From: a virus
Length of the DNA: 29,205 nt
Virus record (IMG/VR): IMGVR_UViG_3300036800_000529
Location: 1 to 29,205 of that record
Reading direction: 5' to 3' (one strand)
A program made the translations under genes and the position numbers. Numbering within the stretch: the stretch's first letter is position 1; each line of letters opens with the position of its first letter. Positions 1-22,804 of this stretch are shown here, piece by piece. The notes beneath the pieces are model-generated. The model had not been told where the DNA came from and did no database searches. It saw nothing but the letters and a program-made list of their open reading frames with translations.

Positions 1-2379
1 TCAGCTGGTGCCACGGACGAAAGCGAAGGGATCCGGCTTGGCCCAAGGCACAAATTTCGTAAGCGAAAACCAGGAGCCAGCAGAATTGGTTCCAAATTGA
101 TATGAGACACGCTCGGCTAGCACATTAGTGAACTGCTCCTTATCCTGCGGGGCTGGCGAGCCAAGCGTCCAGAACCCGAGCGAAGCAGATGTTGCATTGC
201 CGGGGTATAGCGCAGTTACCGCGAGCGAACCGGATCCCTGTACGTATCCGGTAAGATAGCCGAAAAGATTTCTTCCACTCAGACCCGCGGCCGATAGAAA
301 TGCGGTGGTGTAATAGGAATTGATTGCGGATCCGTCATCGGAATACGCGCCAGGAGTAAGTGCGTAGATTTTTCCGGTGGAATTATTAGAGCCGAAAAAA
401 AGTTCTGCCAAGCCAGTGGACCGTTCGATCAATCCGCACGAATTTGCAGCGATTGTCCACGGTGACCATTTGCGGGAACGCTCGGGAGAGCCAGCCAGAG
501 GATCTGCGAAGCTTTCCGTGTAATCGAGCATAAGGATTTGATTCGGCTGAGTGGCCGTGCCCATTGGAACACCGATAAGGATTCGCTTGTGTTGGGTGTC
601 AATTTGAACCCAAAGGTGCTGGGCTGCTTGCCAGTTGATGGCATCCCAGGTGGGTTGGATTTCCTGCGAAAGCTTTATAGGAATACCACCGTCGAACAGA
701 TAGAGACCGGAGCGTCCCGCAATAACGACCCATTCTTCCCCAATCCCTACGCCATGCGCCGAGGGTGTGCCCACTTGATTTGAAACTTCCTCGATTGACC
801 AAAGTGCAGGTTCGTCCACGCCATCGTCGGCAGTTACGTAGAGGCTTCGCTCTTTTACAAAATACAAGTTGTTGCGGAGTATAAACGCGGCGCGAAGCCC
901 TTGCCCATTGTTTTCGGCAATGCTCATAATGCCTGTAACGCCATCGTAGGCCTCGGGAGTTTCCGTTCCAGAGCCCCGGATAAGAGAAGAATTTTGGGCG
1001 GCATTGGTAAGAAAAACCTCGATATTGTCTACAAGGAAAGATTCCCCATTGGGAGCGGGTACGCCATCTACATACACGCGCAACGTTAGGTCAGAAGGCA
1101 GCGAGACTTGCGGCGAAAGCAGATCAGCCGTGAACTCCTGATATGTAGTGGTCGTTTGATTGAAGCTGACGGCAAGCCCGGTAGCAAGCTGCCCGGCCGT
1201 CGGGCTGTATGCGTTAATGCGTAAAGTTCCAGCCGCGAGCCCGGAGCTGCGCTTGATACGGGCACGCACGGAATAATCTGTGTTGTTCGCTAATAGCGGG
1301 TTCCCAGCGGCATCGGTAATGGCATTTTGCGCAATCATACCTCGCGCCGCCGTAACGCCATCCGCCGTTATTCGATAGGCGTCGGCCCAAACCACATCGC
1401 TCGCCTCTCGGCTCCCGCCGACGCCGAAAGATGGATCGAGTTGCCATCCCAGCGGGCGGCCACTACCCGAGACATCCCATCCGCCATCGAACGTGAGATT
1501 GCGCCAGTTGTCCATGTTAGCGCGCTCGCCCCACCAGAAAAGCCGCTGTGCGTAGGCGATTACACCGAGCTGTTCCGGAAGTTCAATCTGGCTGAACAGA
1601 TAGTCCGTGCTGGTCCCAGACAACAGAATGGTATCGCTGAAATCCACAGTGAGAGAAGTCGTGGTGTTGTCATTGATCGTCATGGTCGAAGGGACATTGT
1701 AGAAATTCACCCCGCCGGAAGCTGTGAATGCGAGAAGGCGTTGAACCACATTCGATGGTCCAGTAGGGATGTTTGTGACGCTGGCCTGTTTGCCGCCAAC
1801 GGCGCTCCACGATGCTGGCGGAGAGGGAGCGGTCCAATAGCCCTGTCGAGTGACAAAAATTACTGCACACTGGTGCACACCCGGTGAAATGTTGCCGATA
1901 GTAGTTGAGTCGGCAACAGCCGGTCCCTCGCCAGGACCGTTCTGGCTGACTCGATCAAAATGAGTGTCGTCGAATTGTCGCGGCATGTCCTGACCAGTTA
2001 TGCCGTCTCCGAAAGCCATGTACTCGCGCCCGAATAGCGTAGTGGAATCGAGATAGAGATTGGACGCCACACCTCCCGGAGTGATCAGCGAAAGCGTGCC
2101 GGGTGAGGTTTCTTTATAAAGATTGCCATTGGAGTCGAGAACGATCAGACGCTGAACCAAATTTGTGGTGACATAGGTTTTCAGGCCATTTATCAGCGGG
2201 GCTCCGCCAACAACCGGAAATTGCGAGACCAGCCCCGGTCGCGTGCGAACTCCGCCAGGGAAGAAATCGATGTTACCAACATTTGGCGACATCCCCGCCG
2301 GCACGTCAGATGGATCCAGAAGAGTGATCCAGCCACCAAAGATGCTCAGCGGCAAAGGCGAAAACGACTCAACACTCAT
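1..2379 (-). CDS. Podovirus-type tail nozzle / DNA-stabilisation protein with inserted carbohydrate-binding-like domain
   Basis: A complete 792-residue protein (ATG to TGA), with GAGAG about 7 bases before the ATG. The N-terminus (about residues 15-50: FGGWITLLDPSD, FFPGGVRTRPGL) matches the pattern of phage proteins that close the portal channel below the head, such as P22 gp10 and the T7 gp12 nozzle; this comes from family memory, not a search. The rest is rich in short beta segments (LIVLDSNGNLYKE, WVVIAGRSGLYLFDGG) as in a propeller-like platform. Residues about 295-458 look like a separate jelly-roll of the CBM4/9 type (WDVSG...GWQLDPSF, a YSVRARIKRSSG strand, ending SFLVDNIEVFLT), inserted after LFWWGERANMDNW. 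It is the last gene of the module in this window, following the 117-residue gene. Alternative: a receptor-binding or baseplate-like protein. Confidence 0.65.
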   Translation of the reverse strand: MSVESFSPLPLSIFGGWITLLDPSDVPAGMSPNVGNIDFFPGGVRTRPGLVSQFPVVGGAPLINGLKTYVTTNLVQRLIVLDSNGNLYKETSPGTLSLITPGGVASNLYLDSTTLFGREYMAFGDGITGQDMPRQFDDTHFDRVSQNGPGEGPAVADSTTIGNISPGVHQCAVIFVTRQGYWTAPSPPASWSAVGGKQASVTNIPTGPSNVVQRLLAFTASGGVNFYNVPSTMTINDNTTTSLTVDFSDTILLSGTSTDYLFSQIELPEQLGVIAYAQRLFWWGERANMDNWRNLTFDGGWDVSGSGRPLGWQLDPSFGVGGSREASDVVWADAYRITADGVTAARGMIAQNAITDAAGNPLLANNTDYSVRARIKRSSGLAAGTLRINAYSPTAGQLATGLAVSFNQTTTTYQEFTADLLSPQVSLPSDLTLRVYVDGVPAPNGESFLVDNIEVFLTNAAQNSSLIRGSGTETPEAYDGVTGIMSIAENNGQGLRAAFILRNNLYFVKERSLYVTADDGVDEPALWSIEEVSNQVGTPSAHGVGIGEEWVVIAGRSGLYLFDGGIPIKLSQEIQPTWDAINWQAAQHLWVQIDTQHKRILIGVPMGTATQPNQILMLDYTESFADPLAGSPERSRKWSPWTIAANSCGLIERSTGLAELFFGSNNSTGKIYALTPGAYSDDGSAINSYYTTAFLSAAGLSGRNLFGYLTGYVQGSGSLAVTALYPGNATSASLGFWTLGSPAPQDKEQFTNVLAERVSYQFGTNSAGSWFSLTKFVPWAKPDPFAFVRGTS

Positions 2380-2791: not shown

Positions 2792-2970
2792 TTATTTCCT
2801 CCGATCGAACCGCGTTGAGCGCGGTGATATGAGTTTTCGATTAAATATTGGCTAGCCTGGGCCGAACTTCGCTGGTCACTCATTGCCCTTCGCTGCTATG
2901 ATGACCATTCTCGCGACGCACAACCCGAACACCTGCACCTGGATCCAAAAGCGTCGGCCATTCTTATTCG

Positions 2971-2980
2971 AAAGGGAGAG
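2971..2980 (+). promoter_or_regulatory. Ribosome binding site deciding the start of the NHL gene
   Basis: AAAGGGAGAG lies 4 bases before a TTG at 2985. Starting there gives a textbook signal peptide (MRRLPVVCAVLLVAS...). The reading frame is open back to 2883, but the earlier TTG (2883) and ATGs (2898, 2901) have no recognisable Shine-Dalgarno and would put 34 non-hydrophobic residues before the signal peptide. Confidence 0.55.
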
Positions 2981-2984
2981 CTTC

Positions 2985-4886: not shown

Positions 4887-5603
4887 TTATAGATAAATCG
4901 TTCTCCGCCGGAAACTGTACGGCATCCGACGTCGGGCCTTCGTCTGTTCCGGTCGCACGTATCGCTCGATCAGGTTCTCCGTGGCCATCTGTGCATCCGC
5001 CAGCAGATCTTGCGCGAGCGCTCGAGCGCCACGTGATCGGGCTGCCAATGCCGCCGTAGCGAACGCCAACGGGTCTGTAGCGGAGCGAATTTGTACTGGA
5101 TCGGTACCCAAAATGATTAGCGGAAGAATTTTTTCGTAGCGCAACCGCACTGTGATCGATTGAGAGGCGCCAATCAAATTGATTTTGTCTTCGCGCCATT
5201 CCCAGAGTCGCAGGTAGGTGCTTGGCTGAAGATTCAGCATCCCGCCGCCGCTCATAAACTTTTCCATCGGCACGAATACATCACCGGTGTTTGCTGCCGC
5301 GCGTTCCCACAACTGATGGGGGACCAGGCAATCGGTAGGAAGTTGTGGCTCTGAGACATCGCTGAGTTCCGTGTTAGTCGTGCCGGTTCCAGGATCCGCA
5401 TCCATTTCGATGTCTTGCTGCTCCGCCAACACGCTCACTCCGTTTTCCGCAAGCTCTCGTTGCAGGCCCCGGTAAGCGGAGTTCAGCAGAGGCATCAGGA
5501 GAGAATCTGTGAACACAGCGCCAGACGAATCGTTTAGCAATGCACGCGCCAAGCCCAGCGCGTCTTCCGCTTGCGAATAGGCTGACGTAGGCACGACAGG
5601 CAT
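4887..5603 (-). CDS. Phage head-tail adaptor protein (P22 gp4-like role)
   Basis: 238 residues, ATG preceded by GGAGGATTTC, a strong ribosome binding site. The N-terminal half is helical (ALGLARALLNDSSG, then FTDSLLMPLLNSAYRGLQRE), a pattern I associate with phage adaptor proteins (DUF6682-type) that bind under the portal. The middle has an acidic linker and LPTDCLVPHQLWERA. A later segment (RLRYEKILPLI) is followed by an Ala-rich helix and a basic C-terminus (KARRRMPYSFRRRTIYL). Its length is close to that of adaptor proteins such as P22 gp4. The downstream minus-strand neighbours, past the inverted NHL gene, are the 117-residue protein and the nozzle, which fits a short-tailed particle. The assignment rests on remembered family pattern and position. 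Confidence 0.62.
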   Translation of the reverse strand: MPVVPTSAYSQAEDALGLARALLNDSSGAVFTDSLLMPLLNSAYRGLQRELAENGVSVLAEQQDIEMDADPGTGTTNTELSDVSEPQLPTDCLVPHQLWERAAANTGDVFVPMEKFMSGGGMLNLQPSTYLRLWEWREDKINLIGASQSITVRLRYEKILPLIILGTDPVQIRSATDPLAFATAALAARSRGARALAQDLLADAQMATENLIERYVRPEQTKARRRMPYSFRRRTIYL

Positions 5604-6143: not shown

Positions 6144-6530
6144 CTAGGATTCTTTGTTAAGGAGATTCGAGAGCGTGCTTTCTATCAATTCTAGAGGAGC
6201 GCTTTTCACCAGATAGGCATCGGCGCCAGCGCGTTTAGCCTCTTCAGCAATACGTGCTGATTCGTGCATCGTGAAAATCACGATTTTCGTTTGGGGAGAT
6301 CGCCTGCGGATTTCGCTCGCAGCTTGAAATCCGTTCATCACCGGCATTGTCACATCCAGGAGAACCAGATCGGGCGACAATCTAGCGACTTTGTCAACCG
6401 CCTCGCGGCCATCTTCTGCCTCCCCGCATATTTCCCACGAATCATTCGCGCCGAGGAGGTTTCTGAGGCCCTTCCTGACTACCTCGAAATCATCGACCAA
6501 CAATAGCTTAGCTTTTTGCGCTACACCCAT
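6144..6530 (-). CDS. Single-domain (CheY-like) response regulator, NarL-family receiver without output domain
   Basis: 128 residues forming one receiver domain and nothing else. The acidic pair is D13/D14 (LLLVDDF), the phospho-acceptor is D59 (LVLLDVTMPVMNG), the conserved hydroxyl is T87 (VIFTMHE) and the conserved lysine is K109 (YLVKSAP). All catalytic positions are intact, so it should accept phosphate. Sequence flavour (EVVRKGLRNLL, CGEAEDGREAV) is that of NarL/FixJ regulators, but the protein stops where a helix-turn-helix would begin. Without an output domain it would act by protein-protein contact or as a phosphate sink. It sits between the tailspike-like gene and the 123-residue gene, on the phage strand, with no kinase adjacent. 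Confidence 0.9.
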   Translation of the reverse strand: MGVAQKAKLLLVDDFEVVRKGLRNLLGANDSWEICGEAEDGREAVDKVARLSPDLVLLDVTMPVMNGFQAASEIRRRSPQTKIVIFTMHESARIAEEAKRAGADAYLVKSAPLELIESTLSNLLNKES

Positions 6531-6672: not shown

Positions 6673-9600
6673 CTAATTGATCGTGTAGGTTACCGACACG
6701 CTCAGGCGTTTCGATGTTCCGTCGGCTACGCCCCCGATTGTTTCCAGAAAGTCACCCAAAGTGAGCGCCGTGTTTGATAACGTGGAGCAGGTGACGCTGT
6801 TCCCCTCAATGGTCGTTGCCGTTCCAGACCCATTTGCACAAGCAACATGATCGGTGATTCCGCTCACACTAGCCGGCGTTAACGTCGGCGTTATCGCCGT
6901 CGTTATTCCGTTGTGCCTGTATCCTATTTGCACTGTCGAGGCGCCGGCATCCACCATCACTGCCACCTGTGTGACCGTTGATGCCGCATCAATGTAGCAG
7001 AGCGATCCCTGGGGCTGGATATTGCCGGTTGTCAGTGCGGTTCCGCTTTGATCGCCGCGGACGATATTGCATGTTCTCGTTTTATTGGCCGCGGCGAGCG
7101 AAGCTGATGTAATCGGACTCGCGAACGTCTGCGGCCTTGCCCACGTATTTGCCTGGTTGAAGATCGATTGCGCTCCGTTCCCGGGCGTCAATGATCCTCC
7201 AATCCAGCTCGACACACTGTCGTTTGCCCATAACCAAAGCCCTGGTTGTCCGCTCGCTATGCTCGAGTCCGTTGTCGTGAGCACCACGGTTCCGTTGATC
7301 AAAGCGGTGAGGGTTGTACCAACCACGTCCAACTCGATCGCGTTTCCAACCGCACAGCTCGGACCGCCGCCGACGATCGTGCTCTGCACACTCGCAATGC
7401 GCTTGTAGATCCCGGACCCTCCATTGACGCAAACAAACCCGTATTCCGTGTCCGTCGATGTTCCTGTGCCCCTCACTGTTACTGCGGCAAGGTCGTTGGG
7501 CCCGTTCGTAAGCGCCGTAATGGTCGCCCGAGAGAATTGATCCGCGAGAAAGTTCTGCGCGATCCACGACTCAATACCGGGCGCTCCGCCAGTTTGCGTG
7601 GTGACGGTGTTACCGCTGATTCTGAAATTTCCCCATCCACTGTTTACGACGCTGTTGCTCCAGTTCGCGCCTAGGGTGGATGAATCCGCGCGAGCAAACG
7701 AATCGGCGGTAAAAGGACTTTCCGGGATGAAACCGAGACACGTAACGCTTGCTAAGCAAGGTGGGGTATAGGGCGGGTTCCCGGCCGCGGGTGTCGAAAT
7801 ATTGTTAAAGAGCGCCGATGTTGGCGTGAAGTGATGCTGTGCAACCATCTGGTAAGCGATCGGATAAGCGCCAGGAGTGTTCGGCAGAGAAGTAACCGTC
7901 GCGCTCGAAGTGCTCGCGCCCGAAATAAAAGCGCTCGCGGCGTTGCTCGGGTTGTACTGCGGAGCACTGCCCATGAAGACGCAATATCCGGCAATCGCGG
8001 TTACGCCTGCTGCCGATGGTGTCCAGCTAACATTAAATTCCGCCGTGCTGATGCCGGCACCTACGGTGTACGGCCCAGCAATAGGCGACGGTGCCGAAAA
8101 CGTACTTGCACTTGCGCAGATGCTACCGGTCGTCGAAACCATGTAGATGTAATACGTCCCAGTCGGCAAAGATCCGCCTGTATTGGCCTCTGTGGCTGAA
8201 ACTCCTGTCGGCGGGTAATTCGCAGCAAACGCAATATCGATGTTTGGGGCTGTCGATTGATATAACTGCGCATTCCACCCCGCTTGCGTATTGCTCCCGA
8301 ACGTCAATCCGTTCGTCGCGTCCACCCCGTACGACGCGTAGTTGCTTCCCGACTGCGTAACGCGAATTGCCGGGCCGTCTCCTCTAGGATTCAAATTCCC
8401 GCTTGGCGAACTAATGGAGTGTCCGGCGGAGGAGTCCTTGGTGATATCGGTTATGAAGTCGCTTCCCTGCGCGTTTTGGACCACACCGCTGCCCACTGGA
8501 CTGCCCGAGGAATTCCAGACGACGTAGCTGCAATTCGCGTCGCAGCCAGTCACAAAATAATGATCCAGTGCGCCGGCTGTCATCCTGATCGCGGGCGCGT
8601 TTACGCCCTGTCCGCCAGAGGCCGAATTGTTGATGTATACACCGCTGAGCGTCGTTCCGGCGGAGTTGAAATTGATCAGCGCCGACGAATTGTTCAGGTT
8701 ATCGGATTGCGCCACATCATCGAGCGTAATGGGGCCGACACTCTGAAGTGCGTGCGCGCCTGGGTTTGTGATCTGGATTAGATCGCCATTGCCGCTCTCT
8801 TGGGTGATGTTCCGGAACACCCAGTGTCCAGGCGGCGCGCCGCTTAGATCGCCTCGTTGGATATAAGAAATTGGTCCGCCAGAAATGAGCGTTCCCGCCA
8901 TGTATATATTCCCTACCCCCGAGTAGCATCCGGAACAAGTGTCCCCAGTCATAAGCATCGTCGGTATTGCCGTCGTGCCTACGGTGTTCAAACCCCCACC
9001 ATCGAAGAAAATCCAGAAGGTGTCCCAAAGATGCAGCGGGGTGTTGTCGGTCAGCCCTGAAACACCCACGGTTAAGAACGTATTCTTGAAATGAATCACA
9101 TTTCCCTGAGCCTCTACTGCTTCATTGCACCCGACGATTACCAGATTTTCGAAAGTCGTGTTGCCGTTCGGATAATCCGTGACGAATGCTGCTTTCGCGT
9201 TTGGACTGGGTCCGCAATGCGGCAGCAGCGTCGATGTAGGCGGCTGGACGAAATCGGTTCCGTTGTGCACCGAAGAGTTGCCGCCGAGGAAATGAATTCC
9301 GCCGCAATTGGTATTGAAAGGAATGCCATTCGCATTTGACGATTGCGGCTGCGAAAAAACATAGTTCCCGGGTGGAAAGTAAATCGACCCGCCGCTGCTT
9401 TGATTCGTACCACTCGCACAAAAGGTGCTCATTGCCGCGCGGATAGCAAGTGTGTCGTCATCACCCACACTTGCGCCAGTCGCCGTTGTCGACGCCGCAA
9501 CCGAAAGGTTCAAGGTGTTTCCGGCAATTGAGCTAACCGTTGCCAGCAGTACGTCACCGGACGCTCCTGCTCCGTCCACATGCACGCCCATGCCAACTGT

Positions 9601-10281
9601 GAAACCGGCCGCATTGGCGACGTTGAGCGCTTTCGATCCCGCCGTAATAGATCCCGTTGTACTCTCCGCACCTCCGTCACCAACGGCGCCGTACGCCGGA
9701 GCTGTGATGTCGATGTACGGCCGCGGACCTTGCCACGAAGTATTGCCGTTCACCGTCAACGAGGCGAGCGGTCCAGGATTAAACGTCGAAGCAGTCAGTG
9801 TGCCGGTGACAGTTGCGTTCCCAGCCACGCTCAGGTTTCCGCCCAGGGACAATCCGAAGGCCGATATGTTATTGCCCGCCCCCGAAGAGGAGAGGTCAGC
9901 AGGCAGAATCACATCGGGTTGTGTAATCGTCCCGTTGATCTGCGCGCTCGAAATCTGCACCTCATACCGCCCGGCAGCAGCGTAAAAGTGATAATTTCCC
10001 AATCCGTCTGTCTGAAAAGGATTCGCCGCCCCTACCGTTAGTGTCGCATCGGTATAAACGGTTGCCAGCGGAGTGCATGGTGTCCCGCTTGCCGTGGGTT
10101 GGCACACACGAACAGTCGCGCCCGCTACCGGCCGGCCGCTAGGGCCAAAAACGATGTCGTCTTTCCGTGATCCTTGCGCACGGGCGCCCGAAACGCTCAA
10201 AAAGAAAAGTCCTGCCATCACCAGTAGTGCGACTGGCCTCCCTCGAAAAATGCCCTCGCTATTTTTTGCGACCCTTTTCAT
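6673..10281 (-). CDS. Giant tailspike-like pectate-lyase-fold protein with Sec signal peptide
   Basis: 1202 residues from ATG 10281, which has GGAAGGGAAG upstream and overlaps the previous gene by ATGA. The frame stays open further upstream, but that part overlaps the 241-residue gene and is low-complexity Arg-rich, so it is not used. Residues 1-36 are a clear signal peptide (LLVMAGLFFLSVSGARAQ). Then comes a carboxypeptidase-regulatory/Ig-like domain (about 40-125, FGPSGRPVAGATVRVC), then a Gly/Asn-rich beta linker. A right-handed beta-helix of the Pectate_lyase_3 type follows (about 200-600; AYGAVGDGGAE, DDTLAIRAAM, GGSIYFPPGNYVF). Next are an Fn3-like segment, a LamG/concanavalin-like domain (ADSFARADSSTLGANW...LWLWANDSVSSW) and a beta C-terminus. 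Phage tailspikes use this helix to bind or cleave polysaccharide. The export signal is odd for a virion protein; it may instead be a secreted surface enzyme. Confidence 0.75.
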   Translation of the reverse strand: MKRVAKNSEGIFRGRPVALLVMAGLFFLSVSGARAQGSRKDDIVFGPSGRPVAGATVRVCQPTASGTPCTPLATVYTDATLTVGAANPFQTDGLGNYHFYAAAGRYEVQISSAQINGTITQPDVILPADLSSSGAGNNISAFGLSLGGNLSVAGNATVTGTLTASTFNPGPLASLTVNGNTSWQGPRPYIDITAPAYGAVGDGGAESTTGSITAGSKALNVANAAGFTVGMGVHVDGAGASGDVLLATVSSIAGNTLNLSVAASTTATGASVGDDDTLAIRAAMSTFCASGTNQSSGGSIYFPPGNYVFSQPQSSNANGIPFNTNCGGIHFLGGNSSVHNGTDFVQPPTSTLLPHCGPSPNAKAAFVTDYPNGNTTFENLVIVGCNEAVEAQGNVIHFKNTFLTVGVSGLTDNTPLHLWDTFWIFFDGGGLNTVGTTAIPTMLMTGDTCSGCYSGVGNIYMAGTLISGGPISYIQRGDLSGAPPGHWVFRNITQESGNGDLIQITNPGAHALQSVGPITLDDVAQSDNLNNSSALINFNSAGTTLSGVYINNSASGGQGVNAPAIRMTAGALDHYFVTGCDANCSYVVWNSSGSPVGSGVVQNAQGSDFITDITKDSSAGHSISSPSGNLNPRGDGPAIRVTQSGSNYASYGVDATNGLTFGSNTQAGWNAQLYQSTAPNIDIAFAANYPPTGVSATEANTGGSLPTGTYYIYMVSTTGSICASASTFSAPSPIAGPYTVGAGISTAEFNVSWTPSAAGVTAIAGYCVFMGSAPQYNPSNAASAFISGASTSSATVTSLPNTPGAYPIAYQMVAQHHFTPTSALFNNISTPAAGNPPYTPPCLASVTCLGFIPESPFTADSFARADSSTLGANWSNSVVNSGWGNFRISGNTVTTQTGGAPGIESWIAQNFLADQFSRATITALTNGPNDLAAVTVRGTGTSTDTEYGFVCVNGGSGIYKRIASVQSTIVGGGPSCAVGNAIELDVVGTTLTALINGTVVLTTTDSSIASGQPGLWLWANDSVSSWIGGSLTPGNGAQSIFNQANTWARPQTFASPITSASLAAANKTRTCNIVRGDQSGTALTTGNIQPQGSLCYIDAASTVTQVAVMVDAGASTVQIGYRHNGITTAITPTLTPASVSGITDHVACANGSGTATTIEGNSVTCSTLSNTALTLGDFLETIGGVADGTSKRLSVSVTYTIN

Positions 10282-11003
10282 TGCGCTTCCCTTCCACTCT
10301 TGATCTGCCGCTGCGATATTGCTGGCTCCGTTGCAGCCTTTAAGCTCACGTTCTGTACCGCTGGGCCAAGTCCGTGTTTTGCGGCCTTGTCTGCATCCAA
10401 AATCGCGTGGCAATGTTTGCAGACGGCGACTCCCGTCTTCACTTTTTCGCCGCACGCTGGGCATTCGCTCATCCTCATGGGTACATATGCCCACTCGCGT
10501 TCGATGCCCATCGCAATCGCCGCTCGCCGGTGCAAATCGGATATTTCGCGATACGAATGGCCTCGAGCCCACATGGTATCGCCTTCTCCAATAAGCCGAT
10601 GGTAGTAGGAATCTCGCCGCTCCGTGGCTGCCGTCAATTCTTCGTCGGAGGGTCTTGGGCCGGAACACACGAACATTCCGTGATCTTGCAGGTCCTGTAA
10701 CAGATCATCAGCGATCTCGCGTGCCGTTATCAAAAATGGAAACCGGCGATTGTCTCCCAAGTCGATTACGTCCCCTCTCGAACTCAGTAACAGTAGTGCG
10801 TACGCCTTATCTTTGGGGCATGCTGGAATATGATAGACGCCGTGCGTTCGCGATACATACCAGTCCTGATCGGATATGGATGCTATCGTCGCGGTCGTGG
10901 ACTTATCGGACTCGCCTGCCGTCTCCGCTCGCAAAACGTTCGCTTCAGCGAATCTGTTCTGTGGCGCTGCTGGTATCGCTGCCGCTTTGGTCGTGTCGCT
11001 CAC
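10278..11003 (-). CDS. Phage-module protein of unknown function with C-terminal zinc ribbon
   Basis: 241 residues from GTG 11003, chosen because AGGAG lies 9 bases upstream; an earlier in-frame GTG at 11057 would give 259 residues but has a weak site. The N-terminal 40 residues are Ala-rich and disordered-looking. A compact central part (DWYVSRTHGVYHIPACP, then ITAREIADDLLQDLQDHGMFVC) is followed by a helical charged stretch. A zinc ribbon is formed by C181-x2-C184 and C195-x2-C198 (CPACGEK...CKHC). No family recognised. Its stop overlaps the tailspike-like start (ATGA), which implies translational coupling. A role in tailspike assembly or regulation would be speculation. Confidence 0.72.
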   Translation of the reverse strand: MSDTTKAAAIPAAPQNRFAEANVLRAETAGESDKSTTATIASISDQDWYVSRTHGVYHIPACPKDKAYALLLLSSRGDVIDLGDNRRFPFLITAREIADDLLQDLQDHGMFVCSGPRPSDEELTAATERRDSYYHRLIGEGDTMWARGHSYREISDLHRRAAIAMGIEREWAYVPMRMSECPACGEKVKTGVAVCKHCHAILDADKAAKHGLGPAVQNVSLKAATEPAISQRQIKSGREAQ

Positions 11004-11063
11004 GTGCTCGTTCTCCTGGATTGACTGCCTGGTTCGTCTCTCTTGACCCGCGTTCACTGATTC

Positions 11064-11654
11064 TCAAACAAACGGCTGCCCATGAAACGCGGGCATTGCG
11101 CCGTCGAGAACGTCATCTGCGGTGCGTTCCCATTCGCGCTCGCGGGCCGCTTCGCGACGTGTTATCGCCGCTCTTGCAGTTCCGCGCGGCGACTTCCGCG
11201 TCCACTCGATCGCCCGCACGACCCAGTCACAGACCGTGGGGCTAAGTTGCATGAATCCACCATCCGCCTGTTCGAGCGTGAAGCAGTGCTCCCAATCGCC
11301 TCGGGATGGATACGGCCCCAGCGCGGGGATTCGTATTCCATCTTCGATTTCCGTCGTTCGCGCGTACCACTCTTCGCGCGAACCGTATGCATCGGGTGGC
11401 ATCCATCGTTCGATGTGCCACCGATTCACCGGAATATACTTCGGCTCCTGGCGCAGCTCGATTCTTTCGCGAATCACGTTCCCGTGCGCATCGCGGTCTG
11501 TCCATCGCCCGCCAATCCATCCCAGTCGCGCTCCGCCCCAAACCGCTCGAAAGTTGGGCTCCCCAAATCGGTTCATGCCGCCGGCGCGAGCAATGCGTTC
11601 GCACAGGGCGGCTTCCGCTTCATGCGTTTCTCGTGTTACACGAATCATAAGCAT
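11064..11654 (-). CDS. Phage-module protein of unknown function
   Basis: 196 residues from ATG 11654 (a second ATG two codons later is possible), with GAGAAG 5 bases upstream. The sequence is Trp-, Arg- and Glu-rich (FRAVWGGARLGWIGGRW, YIPVNRWHIERWMPP, WEHCFTLE) and ends in a basic helical region (AAITRREAAREREWERTADD). There is no signal peptide, membrane segment or recognisable catalytic motif. It lies just after the capsid gene and its hairpin, and 60 bases before the 241-residue gene. This position suits a head-completion or minor head protein, but nothing in the sequence proves it. The long plus-strand frame over this gene is a shadow. Confidence 0.68.
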   Translation of the reverse strand: MLMIRVTRETHEAEAALCERIARAGGMNRFGEPNFRAVWGGARLGWIGGRWTDRDAHGNVIRERIELRQEPKYIPVNRWHIERWMPPDAYGSREEWYARTTEIEDGIRIPALGPYPSRGDWEHCFTLEQADGGFMQLSPTVCDWVVRAIEWTRKSPRGTARAAITRREAAREREWERTADDVLDGAMPAFHGQPFV

Positions 11655-11722
11655 TCATGCTTCTCGATCTTCGATTCCGATGGATGTCTATTCACATCCT
11701 TGAATAACAAATCGAAAGGATT

Positions 11723-11750
11723 GAAGGGACGATCTTGCGATCGTCCCTTC
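11723..11750 (-). terminator. Perfect 12-bp hairpin after the capsid gene
   Basis: GAAGGGACGATC, loop TTGC, GATCGTCCCTTC: a perfect 12-bp stem with a four-base loop, 25 bases beyond the capsid stop. On the minus strand the downstream side is AATCCTTTCGATTTGTTATT, T-rich but without a clean T run. It could be a partial terminator, or it could protect the abundant capsid mRNA from 3' decay. It separates the head genes from the following genes. Confidence 0.6.
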
Positions 11751-11774
11751 GCGGTTATGAGGAGGACAACGGGG

Positions 11775-13025
11775 CTAGTAGCCGGTGGGAATGGCGAGAT
11801 TACTGATGTACGCGCCACTTCGAGGAGACTCGTTCCATACCTGGAAGCCCGTCACGAAATAAAAGATATACGCGCTGGCCAATCCGCCGCTCGCCCCGTA
11901 GATTGGGAAAACCGTTTGGCCGCCGACATCGTAGAAATCGATGTCCTGCATCACCGCACGGCCCCAATGAGAAAGGTCGAGAAAATCGACGCGCGACGCG
12001 TTTGCGTTGATGCTCGCCTTGATCGGAACTCCCGCCATCGTTTTGTCGCCCGTGAACAGCAGGTCCAGATCGCTCGCCCGCCCGCCCGCTCCTTCCTTGA
12101 TGATTTGCGAAATGGTCACGCCGAGTTGCTCCCACTGGTGCTCCTGCTCGAGCGAGGTATAAGCCACCAGTTTGGTCACCTGGTTTGTACCGAGGGCCTT
12201 GCGCACCTTGTTGATCGCCAGCCGCACCGCGCCAGGCGTAAGTGCCGAATTACTCGCGTTCACGTTTGGTGTGGCCAGCTCCACCGGGTATGTCGATCGA
12301 TTCAAGTTGAGCCACGTGCCTGTCGTCGCGTTCGTCTGGTGATACAAAATCCCGAACAGTGACACTGGCTGCGCGCCCGTGAGCCCGTCGTGTACGATCA
12401 CATCATTCGCTGACGTTCCTGACGGCACCGAATCGACTGTAATCGTTGCTCCAAATGGATCCACCGCGGTCACGTTGCACGATCCGCGATTTGTAGTCAG
12501 GGTCGGGTCATACACTTGAATTGTCTGGTTGTAATAGACGAGTTGTGCGCCGGGCGGCTTGGCCATTGTGAACGTGCTCGACGAAATGGAGCTGATCGTT
12601 CCCAACACGCCGTTGCCGTTGGTCTGCATCACCTTGTCCAGGAAGGATCGAAATTGTGCCATCGCATTTTTAACCTCGCGTTTGGCGGCGTTTTCGATCG
12701 CCTTCTCCGGTGCATTCGAGGCGTATTCCACCAGCTTCGTGATTTCCACTGCGTGCCGGAAGAACACCGGGGTAACCTGAGCCACGTCATAAACCGTTCC
12801 CGAACCGCGTCCCAGGTCGCCGCCATCCATGTTGGCTAGACCGGCCTTGCCCCCTGGACGAATTTGCAGCGGCAAGCGCATGTTGCGCGAGCTGACGCGT
12901 TCCACATCGCCCCGTTGCTGAATCATCGTGAGTAAAATGTCATTGCGCTCGTAAAGCAGCGGGAGTTTGTCCCGCACTTTCTCCAGTTGCAGCGCAACCG
13001 ATTGCGAGTTCTGCATTTGTGCCAT
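11775..13025 (-). CDS. Probable major capsid protein (HK97 fold, P22-like size)
   Basis: 416 residues from ATG 13025, with AAGGGA 10 bases upstream; the frame opens at a TTG at 13076, which would add 17 residues without a good site. The protein starts with a helical, Gln-rich segment (MAQMQNSQSVALQLEKVRDKLPLLYE). A GGKAGLANMDGGDLGRG loop, a helix (NAPEKAIENAAKREVKNAMA), many beta strands with Gly/Thr turns and a C-terminal YIFYFVTGFQVW strand follow. No short signature motif proves the fold. The call rests on position directly after portal and scaffold, on size near the 430 residues of P22 coat, on domain texture and on the downstream hairpin. Confidence 0.75.
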   Translation of the reverse strand: MAQMQNSQSVALQLEKVRDKLPLLYERNDILLTMIQQRGDVERVSSRNMRLPLQIRPGGKAGLANMDGGDLGRGSGTVYDVAQVTPVFFRHAVEITKLVEYASNAPEKAIENAAKREVKNAMAQFRSFLDKVMQTNGNGVLGTISSISSSTFTMAKPPGAQLVYYNQTIQVYDPTLTTNRGSCNVTAVDPFGATITVDSVPSGTSANDVIVHDGLTGAQPVSLFGILYHQTNATTGTWLNLNRSTYPVELATPNVNASNSALTPGAVRLAINKVRKALGTNQVTKLVAYTSLEQEHQWEQLGVTISQIIKEGAGGRASDLDLLFTGDKTMAGVPIKASINANASRVDFLDLSHWGRAVMQDIDFYDVGGQTVFPIYGASGGLASAYIFYFVTGFQVWNESPRSGAYISNLAIPTGY

Positions 13026-13159
13026 CTTGTATTGGTCCCTTTGAAATGGATTCTCGACTGCGCTCGCGCGCAGCAAGTGTGTTGCGGGTGTCCTTCACGG
13101 ACTGGCTGTTGAGAAAGTCGTTTGTAAAAGAAATTCGAAGCTTAACTTCGCGGAGGGAA

Positions 13160-14311
13160 TCAGAGATTCAGAATGTCGCTATCAGACAATCGCGCGTAAT
13201 CGATATCGCGCGCTGTTTTCCCACCATGCCCATCACGCGCTGCTCCGCCCGAACCGACGATGTCCACCCGTTGCTCGGCCGTACGTTGTCTTGCCCGCCG
13301 TCCGCGATCCGCCGCCATGATCGTCGACGTCCACTCCTCCATCACTTTCTTCGCTACGTTGGGCAGCGCCTGTCTCGCCCGTCCGGTAATCAGCGAAACG
13401 ATCGCGCGCTGGTGGCTCCCATCGAGCGTCCCTGCTCGCAATGCATCGCGTACCTGCTGCGCCAATTGCCGGTTCTCTCCGAGCGTTCTATCTAATTCGC
13501 GATAGATCTCGCCAACCACGCGGTTCCGCGTCGTCTTCGACGCTCCCTCCGGCAACAACCTCTCCACCTGCGTCTGGATTTGATCGACTACGCCTTGTAC
13601 CACTGCCGCATTGGTGCTTTGAAAAAACTCTTGCGTTGCGCCCGAAGTCGTCGATGACCCTGCGCGTCGATCATTTTCTTCGCGCTGTGCGGTCTCAGAG
13701 AGCTCGTCTTCTCCTCTTCTTGCTTGGCTGTTCGCCGCGGCCGGCGCTTTCAACTCGGCATCCTCTGTGCGGCTTCGCTTGCCAAGTTCAGCGCTGATCG
13801 CCTTCGCGAATGACGCAAAAGCTCTCGGATCGAGCGACGCGATTGTTTTAGCTAATTCGGCCTGATCTTCGACTCGCGGCGAAAAGAACAGTGCATCCAG
13901 CCGGTTCAAATCTCCTATCAGCTCCGTCGCCTTGCGTGCTTCGGCTGGCGTCGCAAATACCTCTCGATATTCGCGGGCGTCTTGCCATGCCTGACGCAAC
14001 TCCGGCTTCGCATCGAAAATCTCTCCCAGCGCTTCTGGCTCTCTGTTCTCGTTCAGCTTCTCTTGCGTACTGCCTGCTGTCTCGTCAGCGCTGTCGCCGT
14101 CCACGGCTGAAGATTGGTCTTCGCCATGATCGCCGGATAATCCATCCGCGGCATCGCTTCCCTTGTGTCGCCGTTCATCGAGAAGCCCAAGGATTTCGTC
14201 GTCGCTTCGGTCCTCCACAACACTCCGGTTCGGCTCAACCCGCGATCGCTCGGGTATACGTGCACGGTGTGTTGTTTCTGTCTCGCTTGTTCTGGCAGCA
14301 GATATCGTCAC
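13160..14311 (-). CDS. Probable phage scaffolding protein
   Basis: 383 residues from GTG 14311, preceded by GGAGGAATT. The frame is open further upstream to 14494, but that part overlaps the divergent PilZ gene and is Arg/Cys-rich without sense. The protein is very charged and mostly helical: an acidic N-terminus (VVEDRSDDEILGLLDERR), a Glu/Ala-rich middle (PELRQAWQDAREYREVF, AELAKTIASL), a disordered Ser/Glu linker, and a C-terminal helical domain (VVQGVVDQIQTQVERLLPEG, YRELDRTLGENRQLAQQVRD). The placement between portal and capsid, and this acidic coiled-coil nature, are typical of scaffolds. No protease motif is visible. Confidence 0.68.
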   Translation of the reverse strand: MTISAARTSETETTHRARIPERSRVEPNRSVVEDRSDDEILGLLDERRHKGSDAADGLSGDHGEDQSSAVDGDSADETAGSTQEKLNENREPEALGEIFDAKPELRQAWQDAREYREVFATPAEARKATELIGDLNRLDALFFSPRVEDQAELAKTIASLDPRAFASFAKAISAELGKRSRTEDAELKAPAAANSQARRGEDELSETAQREENDRRAGSSTTSGATQEFFQSTNAAVVQGVVDQIQTQVERLLPEGASKTTRNRVVGEIYRELDRTLGENRQLAQQVRDALRAGTLDGSHQRAIVSLITGRARQALPNVAKKVMEEWTSTIMAADRGRRARQRTAEQRVDIVGSGGAARDGHGGKTARDIDYARLSDSDILNL

Positions 14312-14481
14312 AATTCCTCCGCCATGGCTATCCACGAATTGCCTGGAATAAAGTGCTTTAAACCGTACGAACGTACTATTTTCCTGTTCTTCGCCGCATG
14401 CGACGCTACTCCTATAGCGCGGTTCAAGTGACCAGCCCCGTACGCACGCATCATCGCGCCTGAAGTTTTTAGGAGCTATAC

Positions 14482-15330
14482 ATGGGGACCACAACCATCG
14501 CTTCTACGTCGCAAGGTCCAAGACCTGCCGGACAACCGGCTGCCGCTCAAAGTGACGCGGACCGCCGCCGGCGCAGGCGTGCAAAAATCTCAGCTCAGGT
14601 TTACGTGAAGCTCCTCGATTCAGAACAGCCCTTCGAAGAAATTTGCTTGAGTGTCGACGTATCTCGCGACGGACTACTCTTCGCCAGCGATTCGCCGAAC
14701 TACTCCAAGGGACAGCGCCTCGAAATCATCTTCCCGTATTCCAACATGCCCGGTGCCATCAATCAGGGACAGGTCGCTGAGGTTGTGAGGCTGGTGCCTC
14801 AGCCCGGTGGCAAACACGGCATTGCAGTCCACTTCAGCGCCGCGAAAACCGAGTCGAAGAGCGACAAGAAATCGTCCCTATCCAGGCCCGCGACACTCCC
14901 ATCTGTCGCGTCGTCCGAGAAACAACCGCAATCAGTCGTCCTGGCAATCGAACCCGATCCTCGCGGCGCCGAGTCGATGCGTAACATGCTCGAACAGGAC
15001 GGCTACACAGTAATCGTTGTTCCCAATGGCCAGGCGGCTCTCGAAATCCTGCGCTCCAGCATCCCGTCCGTCTTCATCGCCGAAGTCGAATCGGACGATA
15101 TCTCAGGTCATGACCTTTGCGTCATCGTCAAACAGAACGAACGACTCCAAAACGTCCCGGTGATTCTAATGACCCGCTCCGCGCAGCCCGCCGACTACGC
15201 CACCAGTCATCAACTCGGTGCCGTCGTTTGCATGGCCAAACCCTTTAAGCCGGAGCGCCTGCAGCAAGTGGTCCGGTTGGTTGCCCCGCCGCCCGCTCTG
15301 AAGAACGCTCCCGCCGTTCGTGTCGTCTGA
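14482..15330 (+). CDS. PilZ domain fused to a degenerate receiver domain, inverted cargo gene
   Basis: 282 residues, ATG with AGGAG 6 bases upstream. An N-terminal disordered segment leads to a PilZ domain (about 28-120) with the arginine cluster R28-R33 and the D59-x-S61-x-x-G64 motif (DVSRDG), the two elements that bind cyclic di-GMP. A Ser/Lys linker (120-150) joins a receiver-like domain (151-270). There the acidic pair is E157/D159, the phospho-acceptor position is E201 (FIAEVESDD) rather than Asp, T231 and K253 (MAKPFKP) are kept. It therefore probably cannot be phosphorylated in the usual way. Likely a c-di-GMP-responsive regulator of motility, attachment or exopolysaccharide. It lies between portal and scaffold genes, opposite to both. 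Confidence 0.9.
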   Translation: MGTTTIASTSQGPRPAGQPAAAQSDADRRRRRRAKISAQVYVKLLDSEQPFEEICLSVDVSRDGLLFASDSPNYSKGQRLEIIFPYSNMPGAINQGQVAEVVRLVPQPGGKHGIAVHFSAAKTESKSDKKSSLSRPATLPSVASSEKQPQSVVLAIEPDPRGAESMRNMLEQDGYTVIVVPNGQAALEILRSSIPSVFIAEVESDDISGHDLCVIVKQNERLQNVPVILMTRSAQPADYATSHQLGAVVCMAKPFKPERLQQVVRLVAPPPALKNAPAVRVV

Positions 15331-15349: not shown

Positions 15350-15386
15350 CAGGCTTGGGCGTTACCCAGCAAAACGCCTAAGCCTG
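15350..15386. terminator. Long hairpin between convergent PilZ and portal genes
   Basis: CAGGCTTGGGCGTT, a 9-base loop, AACGCCTAAGCCTG: a 14-bp stem with one mismatch that is a G-U pair in plus-strand RNA. It starts 19 bases after the PilZ stop and overlaps the last codons and stop of the portal gene (stop at 15378-15380). It could end transcription in either direction, although neither side has a long T run. Confidence 0.45.
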
Positions 15387-17795
15387 TGCCCGGCCCGTGT
15401 TTTGCGCTGCTCCCCCCATTCCCTGTTGCGCCATCCTCTGCTGCTTCAGCAAATACTCCCGGTGGAACATCGCATGAGCTCGCACGTTTGCGTACCCTGC
15501 GGGTGCATCGATCTTTGCCACCTGCCCCGCATCCGCCGAAAACCACCGCATGCAGATTTCCAGCTCCACTGCGTGATTGTCGGCGAACTCATCCGGCATG
15601 ATACTCGGCAGTAACAGTTCCACTCCGCTTGGCTCATCTCGCCTTACCACCGGCGCCTCTCCAACAAGCTGTGCGATCTCGCGGTACTGCTTCGTCCGCG
15701 ACTCCTCATCCGGAATCACGAACTCCTCCAATCCGATCATCCTCTTGATCAGCGCCATATTCTCAGGATGCGCAAGCACCCCCTGCAGTTGCGGGTCGGG
15801 ATTCGTAAGCAGTTGCATCAGCACGGCCCGTTGCTGCGACCACAGCGTCGGATATTGCTCGTCCGTTTCGGGGTAACTGAACAAATTCCCTTTCAGATCC
15901 GCCAGCCGGATCCATTTCGACTCGAACGCGGATCCCGCGCCAAGAAGCGTCACTTCCACGTCGCGCGGACGGTTTCTCCGGAAACAATCCACCGCCAGCA
16001 GCATCACGTCCGCATGGAAAAATTTCATTCGCCGCCACACCAGCCCGATTCTGCCCATCGCCTGGTCCCGTGCCATCGAATATCCGGCCGCTGTATCATT
16101 CCCGGACATGGCCCCGCCAAACAGCGCCGGAAACGCGCCCGTGAGGAATTGCGCCACGGGCCCCATCAGATTCGCCGCGTGTTGTGCAAGGTCGGGAGGC
16201 ACCTCTGCCGGCGCTGGCTGAAAGAATCCCGAAGCCAACGACTGCCCCGGTTTCGCCCGTGCAGGATAATGTGCTCCTGGCTCCGCCGTCTGATTCTGCA
16301 ATGAATCGAAATCTAGCACCTCGCTATCCGCGTAAATCGGCGGGATTCCGTACTCGTACGTCTCGATCTGCAGGTTCGATAGCGTATTGAAACGCTCCTG
16401 CACGCTGATCATCACATCGCCCAACGCCGGCCGGCCGCTCGACCCGTCTCCGGGCAGCGCATGTAGCACGCGCCAGTGATCGTCCATAGTCTCGCTGCGC
16501 GCTTCGCAATAAGTGTCCGCGGCAAACGCGACATATGCTCCGTCCGGAAAAAGCTCCAGCAGTTCATCTCGCAGTTCCTTGTCCTCGAGCGCAAAGAATG
16601 CCCAGGGCCGCAGCCAGGTCCTCTGGAAGGTGATGAGGTTCATGTTGAAGTCGCCGCCCTCCGTCAGCGGACCTCCTTGCGACTGCGAAAGCCGTGCCAG
16701 CCGCTCGTATTCCTGCGCTCCAGATGCAACCGGCGCTCCGATCTTATCCGCCGCATGAGGATATGCCGCGCGCAGTCGCGCCTGATGCACCTCCATGTTC
16801 CATTGCAGGTAGGGATACTCATGCATCTCGTTGGCCCAGGGAGGAGTCTTCAGTTCCAACCCTCCGACAATCGTGATCACCTCTTGTCCATTCGGCACTC
16901 GCAGCCGCGTCTGTCCCGCCGGCACCGTAATCATTTCCACGGCCACAAAATCTTCCTCTGTCAGCAGCGCGCCGCATTCTGCGCAAGTCACCTCGGCCTC
17001 AGAAGACGCGCTCTCTTTCTGCTTTGCTGGTTGTCCATTCCCTGGTTTCGGCGTTTCCGTGCCGCATTCCGGACAAACATAGCAATTGCCTCCGACCCGC
17101 ACCTCTCGGCTTTCAATCTCCGTCTCGGGATGAAACCCAAATCTCTGTCCATCCACTACGTAACGCACGTAAGCGCCAACCTTTCCATCCGTCCACAGGT
17201 TGAACGCTTCATCCGCCACCAGATTTCCAATCCGATTGTTTCTCTCCACCAGCGCGGCCACTTCGGTCGCTGCTTTGGCCGCCGCCACGTCCTCTTCCGC
17301 CTGTGCCGATGTCGGGAAAAATCTCACGCGCGGCACGTCTTGCGACAGCACCGCCACCAACGACAATCCAAACGCTTGGTAAATATTCGTCACGAACTCA
17401 TAGCGCGGCAGGTCCTCCAGCGAACTCGCGCTCGTCAGCTTCTGCTCAAAGGGTAAATGCCAGTTCTGGTCTCGTTCGTCCCACCACAAATACTGCAACC
17501 CTCTCCAGAATTGGTGCGCCTGCTTGATGCGCCGGATCTCCTGCCGTCTCGACAATTCTGATTCCGTCGAAAACTGCAGCACCAGTCTGTGCAACGCGTC
17601 CCGAAGCTTTTCTGGCAGCGTTTCATTGTTCGGGCCATACGGCTGTGACGCGGACTCTGCATCTTCTCCGCCCGAAGCGCTCTTCCCGCGTGACCCGGCC
17701 GTTGCCCGGGCAGTTTCTGTCCCTGCCGATTCGACCGGACCTTCCACGGGTACGATGCCCGCATCAACCTTCGAACGTTCTGCTTGTTTGGTCAT
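15378..17795 (-). CDS. Phage portal protein, large P22-like type, with zinc-ribbon insertion
   Basis: 805 residues from ATG 17795 (GAGAG upstream), close to the ~725 residues of the P22 portal. After a disordered 60-residue N-terminus, a helical region (LRDALHRLVLQFSTESELSRR, then AHQFWRGLQYLWWDE) and YEFVTNIYQAFGLSLVAVL are typical of this portal type. C238/C241-x2-C244 and C271-x2-C274 (CPECG...CAECG) form what looks like a zinc ribbon at about 235-280, separated by a Lys/Ser-rich loop. The long C-terminal half (IQVERFNTLSNLQIETYEYG-like helix, AAGYSMARDQAMGRIGLVWRR) fits the stem and barrel. The portal forms the DNA gate and binds TerL and the scaffold. The call relies on size, texture and position between terminase and scaffold. 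Confidence 0.75.
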   Translation of the reverse strand: MTKQAERSKVDAGIVPVEGPVESAGTETARATAGSRGKSASGGEDAESASQPYGPNNETLPEKLRDALHRLVLQFSTESELSRRQEIRRIKQAHQFWRGLQYLWWDERDQNWHLPFEQKLTSASSLEDLPRYEFVTNIYQAFGLSLVAVLSQDVPRVRFFPTSAQAEEDVAAAKAATEVAALVERNNRIGNLVADEAFNLWTDGKVGAYVRYVVDGQRFGFHPETEIESREVRVGGNCYVCPECGTETPKPGNGQPAKQKESASSEAEVTCAECGALLTEEDFVAVEMITVPAGQTRLRVPNGQEVITIVGGLELKTPPWANEMHEYPYLQWNMEVHQARLRAAYPHAADKIGAPVASGAQEYERLARLSQSQGGPLTEGGDFNMNLITFQRTWLRPWAFFALEDKELRDELLELFPDGAYVAFAADTYCEARSETMDDHWRVLHALPGDGSSGRPALGDVMISVQERFNTLSNLQIETYEYGIPPIYADSEVLDFDSLQNQTAEPGAHYPARAKPGQSLASGFFQPAPAEVPPDLAQHAANLMGPVAQFLTGAFPALFGGAMSGNDTAAGYSMARDQAMGRIGLVWRRMKFFHADVMLLAVDCFRRNRPRDVEVTLLGAGSAFESKWIRLADLKGNLFSYPETDEQYPTLWSQQRAVLMQLLTNPDPQLQGVLAHPENMALIKRMIGLEEFVIPDEESRTKQYREIAQLVGEAPVVRRDEPSGVELLLPSIMPDEFADNHAVELEICMRWFSADAGQVAKIDAPAGYANVRAHAMFHREYLLKQQRMAQQGMGGAAQNTGRAQA

Positions 17796-19141: not shown

Positions 19142-20797
19142 CTACCATCTTCGTCGGTGCACGAACGATACCGGTCCCCTTCCCCGCGTTTCCTCGACCT
19201 GTGCCTTCCGCGCCTGAATCGCCCGAATTGTCGGATCGTCCGACACGACGCGCGCCGCCAACCGTTGCTCAAGCGGCATCTGTGCCTGTCGGCCACGCCC
19301 TAGTCCATAGCGCGACTTCAGCCCGTACCGCGCCGCATCTGCCGCGTCGTCTCCGTCCATCTTCTCGATGTCTTCCACCCGCACACTGTCGCGCACCAGG
19401 TTAGGCAGCGACCGAATCAGCTCCTCGCAATTCTCGGTCAGCAGCCACTCGTCTGCCTCAAGCATTTGATACATCAGCATCCAGCCGCCTACGCGATCGT
19501 CATCGGCTGGCACAGGCCGCGGCAATCCGGCCGCCGCGAAAACATCTCCCATTTGCTCCGCAATCGATGCTTCATCGGTTCGCCGCGCAAACGCGTCTGG
19601 CGAAAGATAGATCGCATCAACCTTCTCCCGCGACTCGCTGCTTTCCTTCCAACAGCGTTTCTCGTTGTCCCATGTTGCTCCAGGCTTCCCTACGTGTTCG
19701 CCGCCAGAAAAACATCTCGCCACGATTTCTCGCGCCAGTTCTCTCGGCGGCGTGCGATGCGTCACGTATTCCCGGTATGTCACCACTCCCGGCTGCAGGT
19801 CTACTCGATCCTCGCCCGTTGTCGAACCTGGAACCCGCTCGTCTGCCGCGCCCTCAGCGAATGCGCCTTTCCATTCTCCTTGCGCGTGCCAGTACACCGC
19901 CGCCGGATGCTCGAATCCCCAATCGATCGAGATCCACCGTGGCCACCACGGTTTCCACTCGATTTCCTCTGCCCGAATCACATGCCGTGCCCATTGAAAA
20001 CGGTCGAAGTACTGCCCAGCCAGCACGTCCCAATCGCCGTCCAGAAACGCTCGCCTCAAATTCGAGGGCAGCGCTTTCAACGTTTTCAGGTAATTCGTAT
20101 CCTTCGCATAAATCGGATTGTCCGAGACGCGCGCCGCTGTAAATCCATAGTCGTTGGGATCGTATTCATCCGCGGAGTCCATTCCCGGCGCTGGTTCGCG
20201 ATCGATCCAGAGCGCCTTCACCCAGGCGTGCCCTATATTCCCAGGATTGGTCGCCGCAGCCATGCAGGGAAAACTTCCCGGCACCGGACACCGGTTGCGG
20301 CTCGTTAGAAACTGCCACTGCCGCAACGTAAACATCGTCAGCTCATCGATGCCAATGAACAGAAATTCCGCTCCCTGGTATTGATAAACATCATTTTCGT
20401 TCTGGCAGTATCCGAATCTCGTGGTCGACCCGTTCAGCCACGTGACAACATGTTTCGATTCGTTGAAACTGATGTATTTGTCGCGCTCAATATCCCTCCT
20501 GAAATACATCAGAAGTGACTGTTCGAGCTCACGGAACGTGCGCCTCAGCAGAAGCGTATCCACGCCCGAAAACTTGTTTGCTTGAAGAACCGCCTCCATC
20601 AGCAGCGCTTTTGACTTTCCCGGCCCTGCTGCGCCGCCGAAGAGTCGATACTTCGCATCGCAGCCATGAAATTCGTTCTGCTTTGGAAAGGGTTGGTAGC
20701 GAAGCTTCAGTTTCAATATCTCGCCGTCGAAGTCTACGGGTCGCTTTTGTAGGCTTTTAGCGATCCCGCTCTCCGTTTTTGGTATAACGATTGCCAT
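19142..20797 (-). CDS. terL: Phage terminase large subunit (packaging ATPase and nuclease)
   Basis: 551 residues from ATG 20797; a TTG 18 bases earlier is also in frame. The ATPase part has Walker A at residues 54-62 (GGAAGPGKS), an adenine-binding-like QNEFH upstream, Walker B at about 145-152 (FLFIGIDE with D151/E152) and a coupling motif at 182-187 (ATNPGN). The nuclease part starts WISIDWGFEHP (D292) and has a C-terminal DGDDAADAARYGL (D481, D484, D487) for metal binding. The enzyme pumps DNA through the portal and cuts concatemers. All key residues are present, so it looks intact. Length is normal for the family. It follows the 54-residue gene by 26 bases and heads the packaging/head cluster. 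Confidence 0.95.
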   Translation of the reverse strand: MAIVIPKTESGIAKSLQKRPVDFDGEILKLKLRYQPFPKQNEFHGCDAKYRLFGGAAGPGKSKALLMEAVLQANKFSGVDTLLLRRTFRELEQSLLMYFRRDIERDKYISFNESKHVVTWLNGSTTRFGYCQNENDVYQYQGAEFLFIGIDELTMFTLRQWQFLTSRNRCPVPGSFPCMAAATNPGNIGHAWVKALWIDREPAPGMDSADEYDPNDYGFTAARVSDNPIYAKDTNYLKTLKALPSNLRRAFLDGDWDVLAGQYFDRFQWARHVIRAEEIEWKPWWPRWISIDWGFEHPAAVYWHAQGEWKGAFAEGAADERVPGSTTGEDRVDLQPGVVTYREYVTHRTPPRELAREIVARCFSGGEHVGKPGATWDNEKRCWKESSESREKVDAIYLSPDAFARRTDEASIAEQMGDVFAAAGLPRPVPADDDRVGGWMLMYQMLEADEWLLTENCEELIRSLPNLVRDSVRVEDIEKMDGDDAADAARYGLKSRYGLGRGRQAQMPLEQRLAARVVSDDPTIRAIQARKAQVEETRGRGPVSFVHRRRW

Positions 20798-20823
20798 CGA
20801 CGCACCGCCCCCCAATCGTTTGC

Positions 20824-22753: not shown

Positions 22754-22804
22754 TCCCAGTCCGCCCCGCTGTGCCACCCTATCCACACCCAAATTGTAGC
22801 TTAA

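Follow-up and report, generated by a model that had tools for sequence, protein, structure and literature searches.

The gene P0001 (6673..10281, minus strand, of the window, by which we mean the whole analysed stretch of 29,205 nucleotides) encodes a tailspike-like protein of 1202 residues, which, judging from its leader and its relatives, is very probably exported from the cytoplasm. We read it as the Sec-exported, disulfide-bonded tailspike of an inherited cluster resembling a gene transfer agent (GTA), which would dock on particles at lysis or act free in their neighbourhood, and assign this reading a probability of roughly 45%. Within it, we infer Sec translocation and cleavage of the leader, as well as docking, trimer formation, activity on polysaccharide, timing at lysis and the disulfides; the leader and its conservation, the conserved domain, the cysteine pattern, synteny, selection and inheritance are directly observed.

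The spike gene and its export leader

The frame of P0001 is open throughout from 10281 to 6673 (-). Its start codon, ATG at 10281, shares the sequence ATGA with the TGA stop of the gene upstream (10278-11057) and is preceded immediately 5' by the purine-rich ribosome site GGAAGGGA, which upholds the start chosen in the initial annotation; an alternative in-frame GTG at 10668 would give 1331 residues and an overlap of about 390 nt with the upstream gene. A right-handed beta-helix region (8212..9714 (-), approximate limits) was assigned on the basis of a sub-threshold match to PF12708 and of profile matches in the PDB to glucanases, lyases and epimerases whose solved structures are beta-helices, and the region 7255..7710 (-) matches phrog_2804 (virion structural protein) with E=1.1e-10. 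Searches with the whole protein yielded no match among cultured phages and three close relatives in viral contigs. A profile built on the N-terminal module recruited 25 viral and 27 genome loci; among the matches listed, the record titles of the latter all name Acidobacteria or a group of them. Once near-identical entries had been discarded, the set comprised 58 signal-bearing members.

Residues 1-35 (10177..10281 (-)) have the motif, conservation and hydropathy of a Sec-type signal peptide. The leader, MKRVAKNSEGIFRGRPVALLVMAGLFFLSVSGARA, has a basic start, a hydrophobic core of 11 residues with a mean hydropathy peak of 2.77, and an ARA end, followed by Gln36 after the predicted cut (ARA|Q). 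A hydrophobic leader with a terminal [AG]-Q at or adjoining the start of the conserved domain was found in all 58 non-redundant relatives, so that a chance leader or a wrongly placed start was rejected. The signal peptide prediction called for in the initial annotation was run as a crude scorer, which 53/58 spikes passed, the other five missing its thresholds, and together with the full conservation this supports the N-terminal signal with an ARA-Q site proposed there. As controls, the scorer was positive for 5/5 host DsbA-like proteins and for 0/49 capsid, terminase, nozzle, scaffold, P0003 and P0004 genes of the clusters; in a scan over multiple starts, it was also positive for 3/9 adaptor genes and 1/9 portal-sized genes, which we took as false calls. 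No twin-arginine motif was present in any of the 58 signal-bearing members, and Tat export of P0001 was rejected on this ground. Tailspikes are usually cytoplasmic and carry no export signal, a usual rather than a strictly defining trait, from which the present spike group departs in 58 of 58 cases.

When close relatives are compared, the leader sequence drifts (omega 0.20-1.07) but its hydrophobicity is retained; together with the constrained domain behind it, this is the typical evolution of a signal peptide.

The N-terminal domain and the cysteines

The predicted mature protein begins with a carboxypeptidase-regulatory-like domain (residues 36-127; 9901..10176 (-)). The domain type proposed in the initial annotation was confirmed through relatives, as PF13620 matches the domain below the Pfam cut-off in L152, L027 and L013; for the domain of P0001 itself the Pfam scan gave no PF13620 match, and in most spikes scanned, that of the window among them, neither PHROG nor Pfam named the domain. 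The further proposal that it stands in place of a virion-binding head domain was not supported. The same domain starts at residue 1, without a leader, in distant members (L022, L023, L027, L154/L155, L166, L168), and likewise opens gp20 of Marinomonas phage P12026 (annotated as tail protein) and ORF26 of Idiomarinaceae phage 1N2-2 (annotated as tail spike). In a joint alignment, the signal-bearing group has its mature N-terminus where the signal-less group has its initiator methionine. A profile search of solved structures returned weak matches to tailspike head-binding or N-terminal domains (7eeq, E=0.05; 9vyg, E=0.23) and to generic beta-sandwich domains; PDB searches with single N-terminal domains returned nothing useful. 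Because the domain opens signal-less phage spikes and weakly matches 7eeq and 9vyg, it is more likely the anchor itself than a replacement for one. Its omega between close relatives is 0.02-0.15, a constraint as strong as that on the capsid protein, and the body is looser; such a tight domain joined to a loose body would be expected of a protein that combines a docking domain with a receptor part. As in P0001, the domain in gp20 and ORF26 is followed by a tail or spike body and the gene lies near lysis genes; unlike P0001, both proteins lack the signal peptide and the cysteine pair and have the domain at residue 1. Since leaderless spikes also occur in phages with related structural genes (L022), export is not required for a spike as such.

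According to the joint alignment, a loop carrying a cysteine pair (Cys60...Cys69; 10075..10104 (-)) is found in the signal-bearing group only, the signal-less L022 retaining one of the two cysteines. Behind the leader, the complete signal-bearing spikes, 51 in all, contain between 9 and 32 cysteines; the number is even in 46 of them (binomial p 2e-9, for members that are not phylogenetically independent) and in 25 of 29 clusters formed at 50% identity (p 1e-4). For comparison, even numbers were counted in 1/9 terminases, 4/9 portal-sized proteins and 4/10 nozzles, and in 5/5 NadE sequences, which illustrates that small samples can mislead. Mean cysteine content is 1.77% in the signal-bearing spikes versus 0.05-0.55% in the capsid, scaffold, adaptor and nozzle genes; in signal-less spikes it varies between 0.2 and 1.9%. 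The coincidence of the pair with the signal and the even counts are good evidence for folding outside the cytoplasm, with disulfide pairing as the natural reading of the pattern.

That the hydrophobic N-terminus instead stays uncleaved, and serves the particle in membrane contact or anchoring, would account for the presence of a hydrophobic leader; we consider it very improbable, given that a conserved cleavage-site motif lies right before the domain, that the sequence of the leader drifts, that the cut site aligns with the start of the signal-less spikes, and that the cysteine pair and even counts point outside the cytoplasm.

The capsid cluster and its inheritance

Upstream of P0001 lie P0004, a zinc-ribbon protein whose stop overlaps the spike start (10278..11057 (-)), and the conserved gene P0003 (11064..11654 (-)), both kept in synteny. 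Further genes of the cluster, all on the minus strand, are the major capsid protein (11775..13076; phrog_14242, E=6e-10), a scaffold-like gene (13160..14494), a portal-sized gene (15378..17795; omega 0.07), the terminase large subunit (19142..20815; PF04466, phrog_979), a head-tail adaptor-like gene (4887..5603) and a virion structural protein resembling a tail nozzle (1..2379; phrog_3287, E=1.7e-5). The putative adaptor, nozzle, portal and scaffold roles were assigned from gene order and size, and the cluster was termed podovirus-like as it gave no tape-measure match. Its lysis genes comprise an SLT (lytic) transglycosylase and a weak holin match, and two further families, F25/F27, are possible receptor-binding genes that carry no signal.

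Several additional genes were observed in the window. An exported NHL-repeat beta-propeller gene (2883-4883 (+)) occupies, in antisense, the gap between the adaptor-like and nozzle-like genes, with a relative in this place in about 10 related loci, and a gene with PilZ and response-regulator receiver domains (14482-15330 (+)) lies antisense between the portal-sized and scaffold genes and is common to three other genomes. A CheY-like response regulator (6144-6530 (-)) between spike and adaptor was not detected there in related loci. Upstream of the terminase, a small protein of family F19 (22313-22792 (-)) has a signal-like leader in 4/4 copies, and a PAS-domain histidine kinase at the upstream window end (27148-29205 (+)) is probably host flank.

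The capsid protein was found, mostly in single copy, in 45/95 genomes of one Acidobacteriota order; in a phylum-wide sample of 396 genomes, it occurred, besides the member of the order used as centre, in one other genome only, at 26% identity. Nine genomes were read over 43 to 60 kb, with terminase, capsid, tail-type and lytic transglycosylase genes in the cluster and, where its end was covered, a DsbA-like gene, nadE, an IscA-like gene and an isocitrate-type dehydrogenase (icd) thereafter. The immediate host neighbour in the genomes read to that end is thus a DsbA/DsbC-like thiol-disulfide gene (L072, 14110-15027 (+)), possibly by coincidence. In 14 of the 15 genomes with both full-length genes on one contig, capsid gene and nadE are convergent and spaced by 16.2-28.0 kb; in the exception, G060, they are 127 kb apart. 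Genomes devoid of the element have the same flanks joined, several of them with pieces of the element (e.g. G043, G087, G045), and element fragments occupy the same chromosomal site in genomes that have no capsid gene (L134-L135, L144-L145, L149-L150). Identities of the capsid protein correlate with those of NadE (Mantel r=0.78, 0/2000 permutations), capsid and host trees share 17/27 splits (random mean 0.16), and a capsid omega of 0.04-0.11 indicates strong purifying selection. No tyrosine integrase was found in the cluster of seven genomes searched or in the window.

On the grounds of the fixed site, the host-congruent tree, the missing integrase and the purifying selection, the cluster is, by its sequence, a phage-derived, vertically inherited element that we call GTA-like and not a GTA. 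Seen against the criteria for gene transfer agents in PMC9662315, it is fully endogenised and mostly vertically inherited, with co-diversification with its host; putative Caudoviricete-derived particle proteins are represented by the sequence matches of terminase and capsid. A decaying prophage was rejected for the intact copies in view of the capsid omega, while some genomes do hold remnants. Classification of the source record as viral by IMG/VR and the existence of related phage-like contigs would agree with an ordinary temperate phage of narrow host range; this context was rejected as well, and we regard it as highly improbable, since the site near the dsb-like gene, nadE and icd is the same in many species, with remnants where the element was lost, and since the capsid tree follows the host and the cluster carried no tyrosine integrase in the seven genomes. 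Of the earlier view that P0001 is exported from within a phage operon, export thus agrees with the conserved leader, the cleavage-site motif, the cysteine pair and the even cysteine number, while the setting of a plain phage operon gives way to a vertically inherited chromosomal element. The open-access literature, to which our search was limited apart from a minority of subscription journals, yielded no description of a gene transfer agent from Acidobacteriota.

Spread, known systems and proposed maturation

Signal-bearing spikes extend beyond the element. They were found in phage-like contigs (L004, L014, L015, L019-L021, L024, L025), further down the structural region; in L004 the spike adjoins an ORF read as a peptidase-like endolysin. 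L017 is a siphovirus-type prophage with a terminal integrase; it also has a capsid-protease fusion together with tape measure, Dit and J-type tail genes, and its signal-bearing spike (9929-12628) is placed between the tape measure, whose stop it overlaps as ATGA, and Dit. The spike generally lies inside structural gene clusters, with the ATGA overlap occurring in the window, L113, L116, L015 and L017.

Among the closest known systems is TspA of the Rhodobacter capsulatus RcGTA, which is likewise the tailspike of a phage-derived, host-inherited cluster; it is loosely attached, has an N-terminal beta-sandwich domain, acts on biofilm polysaccharide and can act free of the particle (PMC13420450), the two last properties being predicted for P0001. 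It differs in that the text of the paper makes no mention of a signal peptide, periplasm or disulfide, in that RcGTA is a long-tailed particle with a baseplate, and in that the authors found no TspA-like homologs in phages (PMC13420450), whereas the module of P0001 occurs in true phages. From Pantoea stewartii, WceF is known as a tailspike-like beta-helix protein that is exported and begins with a domain of phage type, as predicted for P0001; in contrast to P0001, it has a Tat signal, a P22-type head domain and a role in exopolysaccharide biosynthesis, and no capsid gene cluster (PMC7949094). The Bdellovibrio MAT fibre proteins share with P0001 the signal peptide, a beta-rich domain and a phage-fibre-like body, but are host-encoded, serve predation and are not known in a capsid gene cluster (PMC10769870). 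An exported phage tailspike of the P0001 kind was not found in the literature searched, which comprised open-access papers and a minority of subscription journals.

These precedents bear on a possible, though in our view less probable, explanation in line with the initial annotation, by which P0001 would be a free polysaccharide-modifying enzyme or adhesin: a protein of phage-derived fold that living cells secrete and that never joins a particle. The host-encoded, tailspike-like trimer WceF carries a Tat signal and cleaves biofilm polysaccharide (PMC7949094); in the fibre-like proteins exported by Bdellovibrio, a beta-rich domain adjoins the signal peptide directly (PMC10769870); and the leader, the cysteine pattern and the further exported genes within the cluster are in line with such a function. 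It is at odds with the embedding of the spike among structural genes, with start-stop overlap, in two unrelated phage types, and with an N-terminal domain that is constrained like the capsid protein and common to signal-less phage spikes. Co-orientation with, and embedding among, structural genes in most loci also make it unlikely that P0001 is a surface protein of the lysogen or host (a moron) that modifies the cell surface and prevents superinfection, even if its export and a body that varies as under an arms race would suit this role.

For the reading of P0001 as a Sec-exported tailspike, we propose the following sequence of events. The protein would be made together with the late structural genes, exported via Sec, cut at ARA|Q and folded oxidatively outside the cytoplasm, and would thus be separated from the particles, which would assemble in the cytoplasm. 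The lysis genes of the cluster would then open the cell, upon which the spike may meet the particles and dock, as a candidate mode, via the conserved N-terminal beta-sandwich-like domain, or else act free nearby; the variable beta-helix would bind or cut surface polysaccharide. We tentatively extend this to acidobacterial tailed phages and the GTA-like element derived from them: in both, the tailspike may mature outside the cytoplasm, being exported and disulfide-bonded first and attached to particles no earlier than lysis.

Inherited capsid clusters can be filed as viruses in viral databases, of which the present record is a warning. The cluster, long inherited in an order of soil Acidobacteriota, qualifies as a candidate gene transfer agent, and for this phylum none is reported in the literature searched. 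Tailspikes are generally regarded as cytoplasmic. Here, in many viruses of one phylum, spanning podovirus-like clusters and a siphovirus-type prophage, a cysteine pair and even cysteine counts accompany an export signal, and this combination offers a clear, testable case for spikes that are finished outside the cytoplasm; if true, a tailed particle would be built from two compartments.
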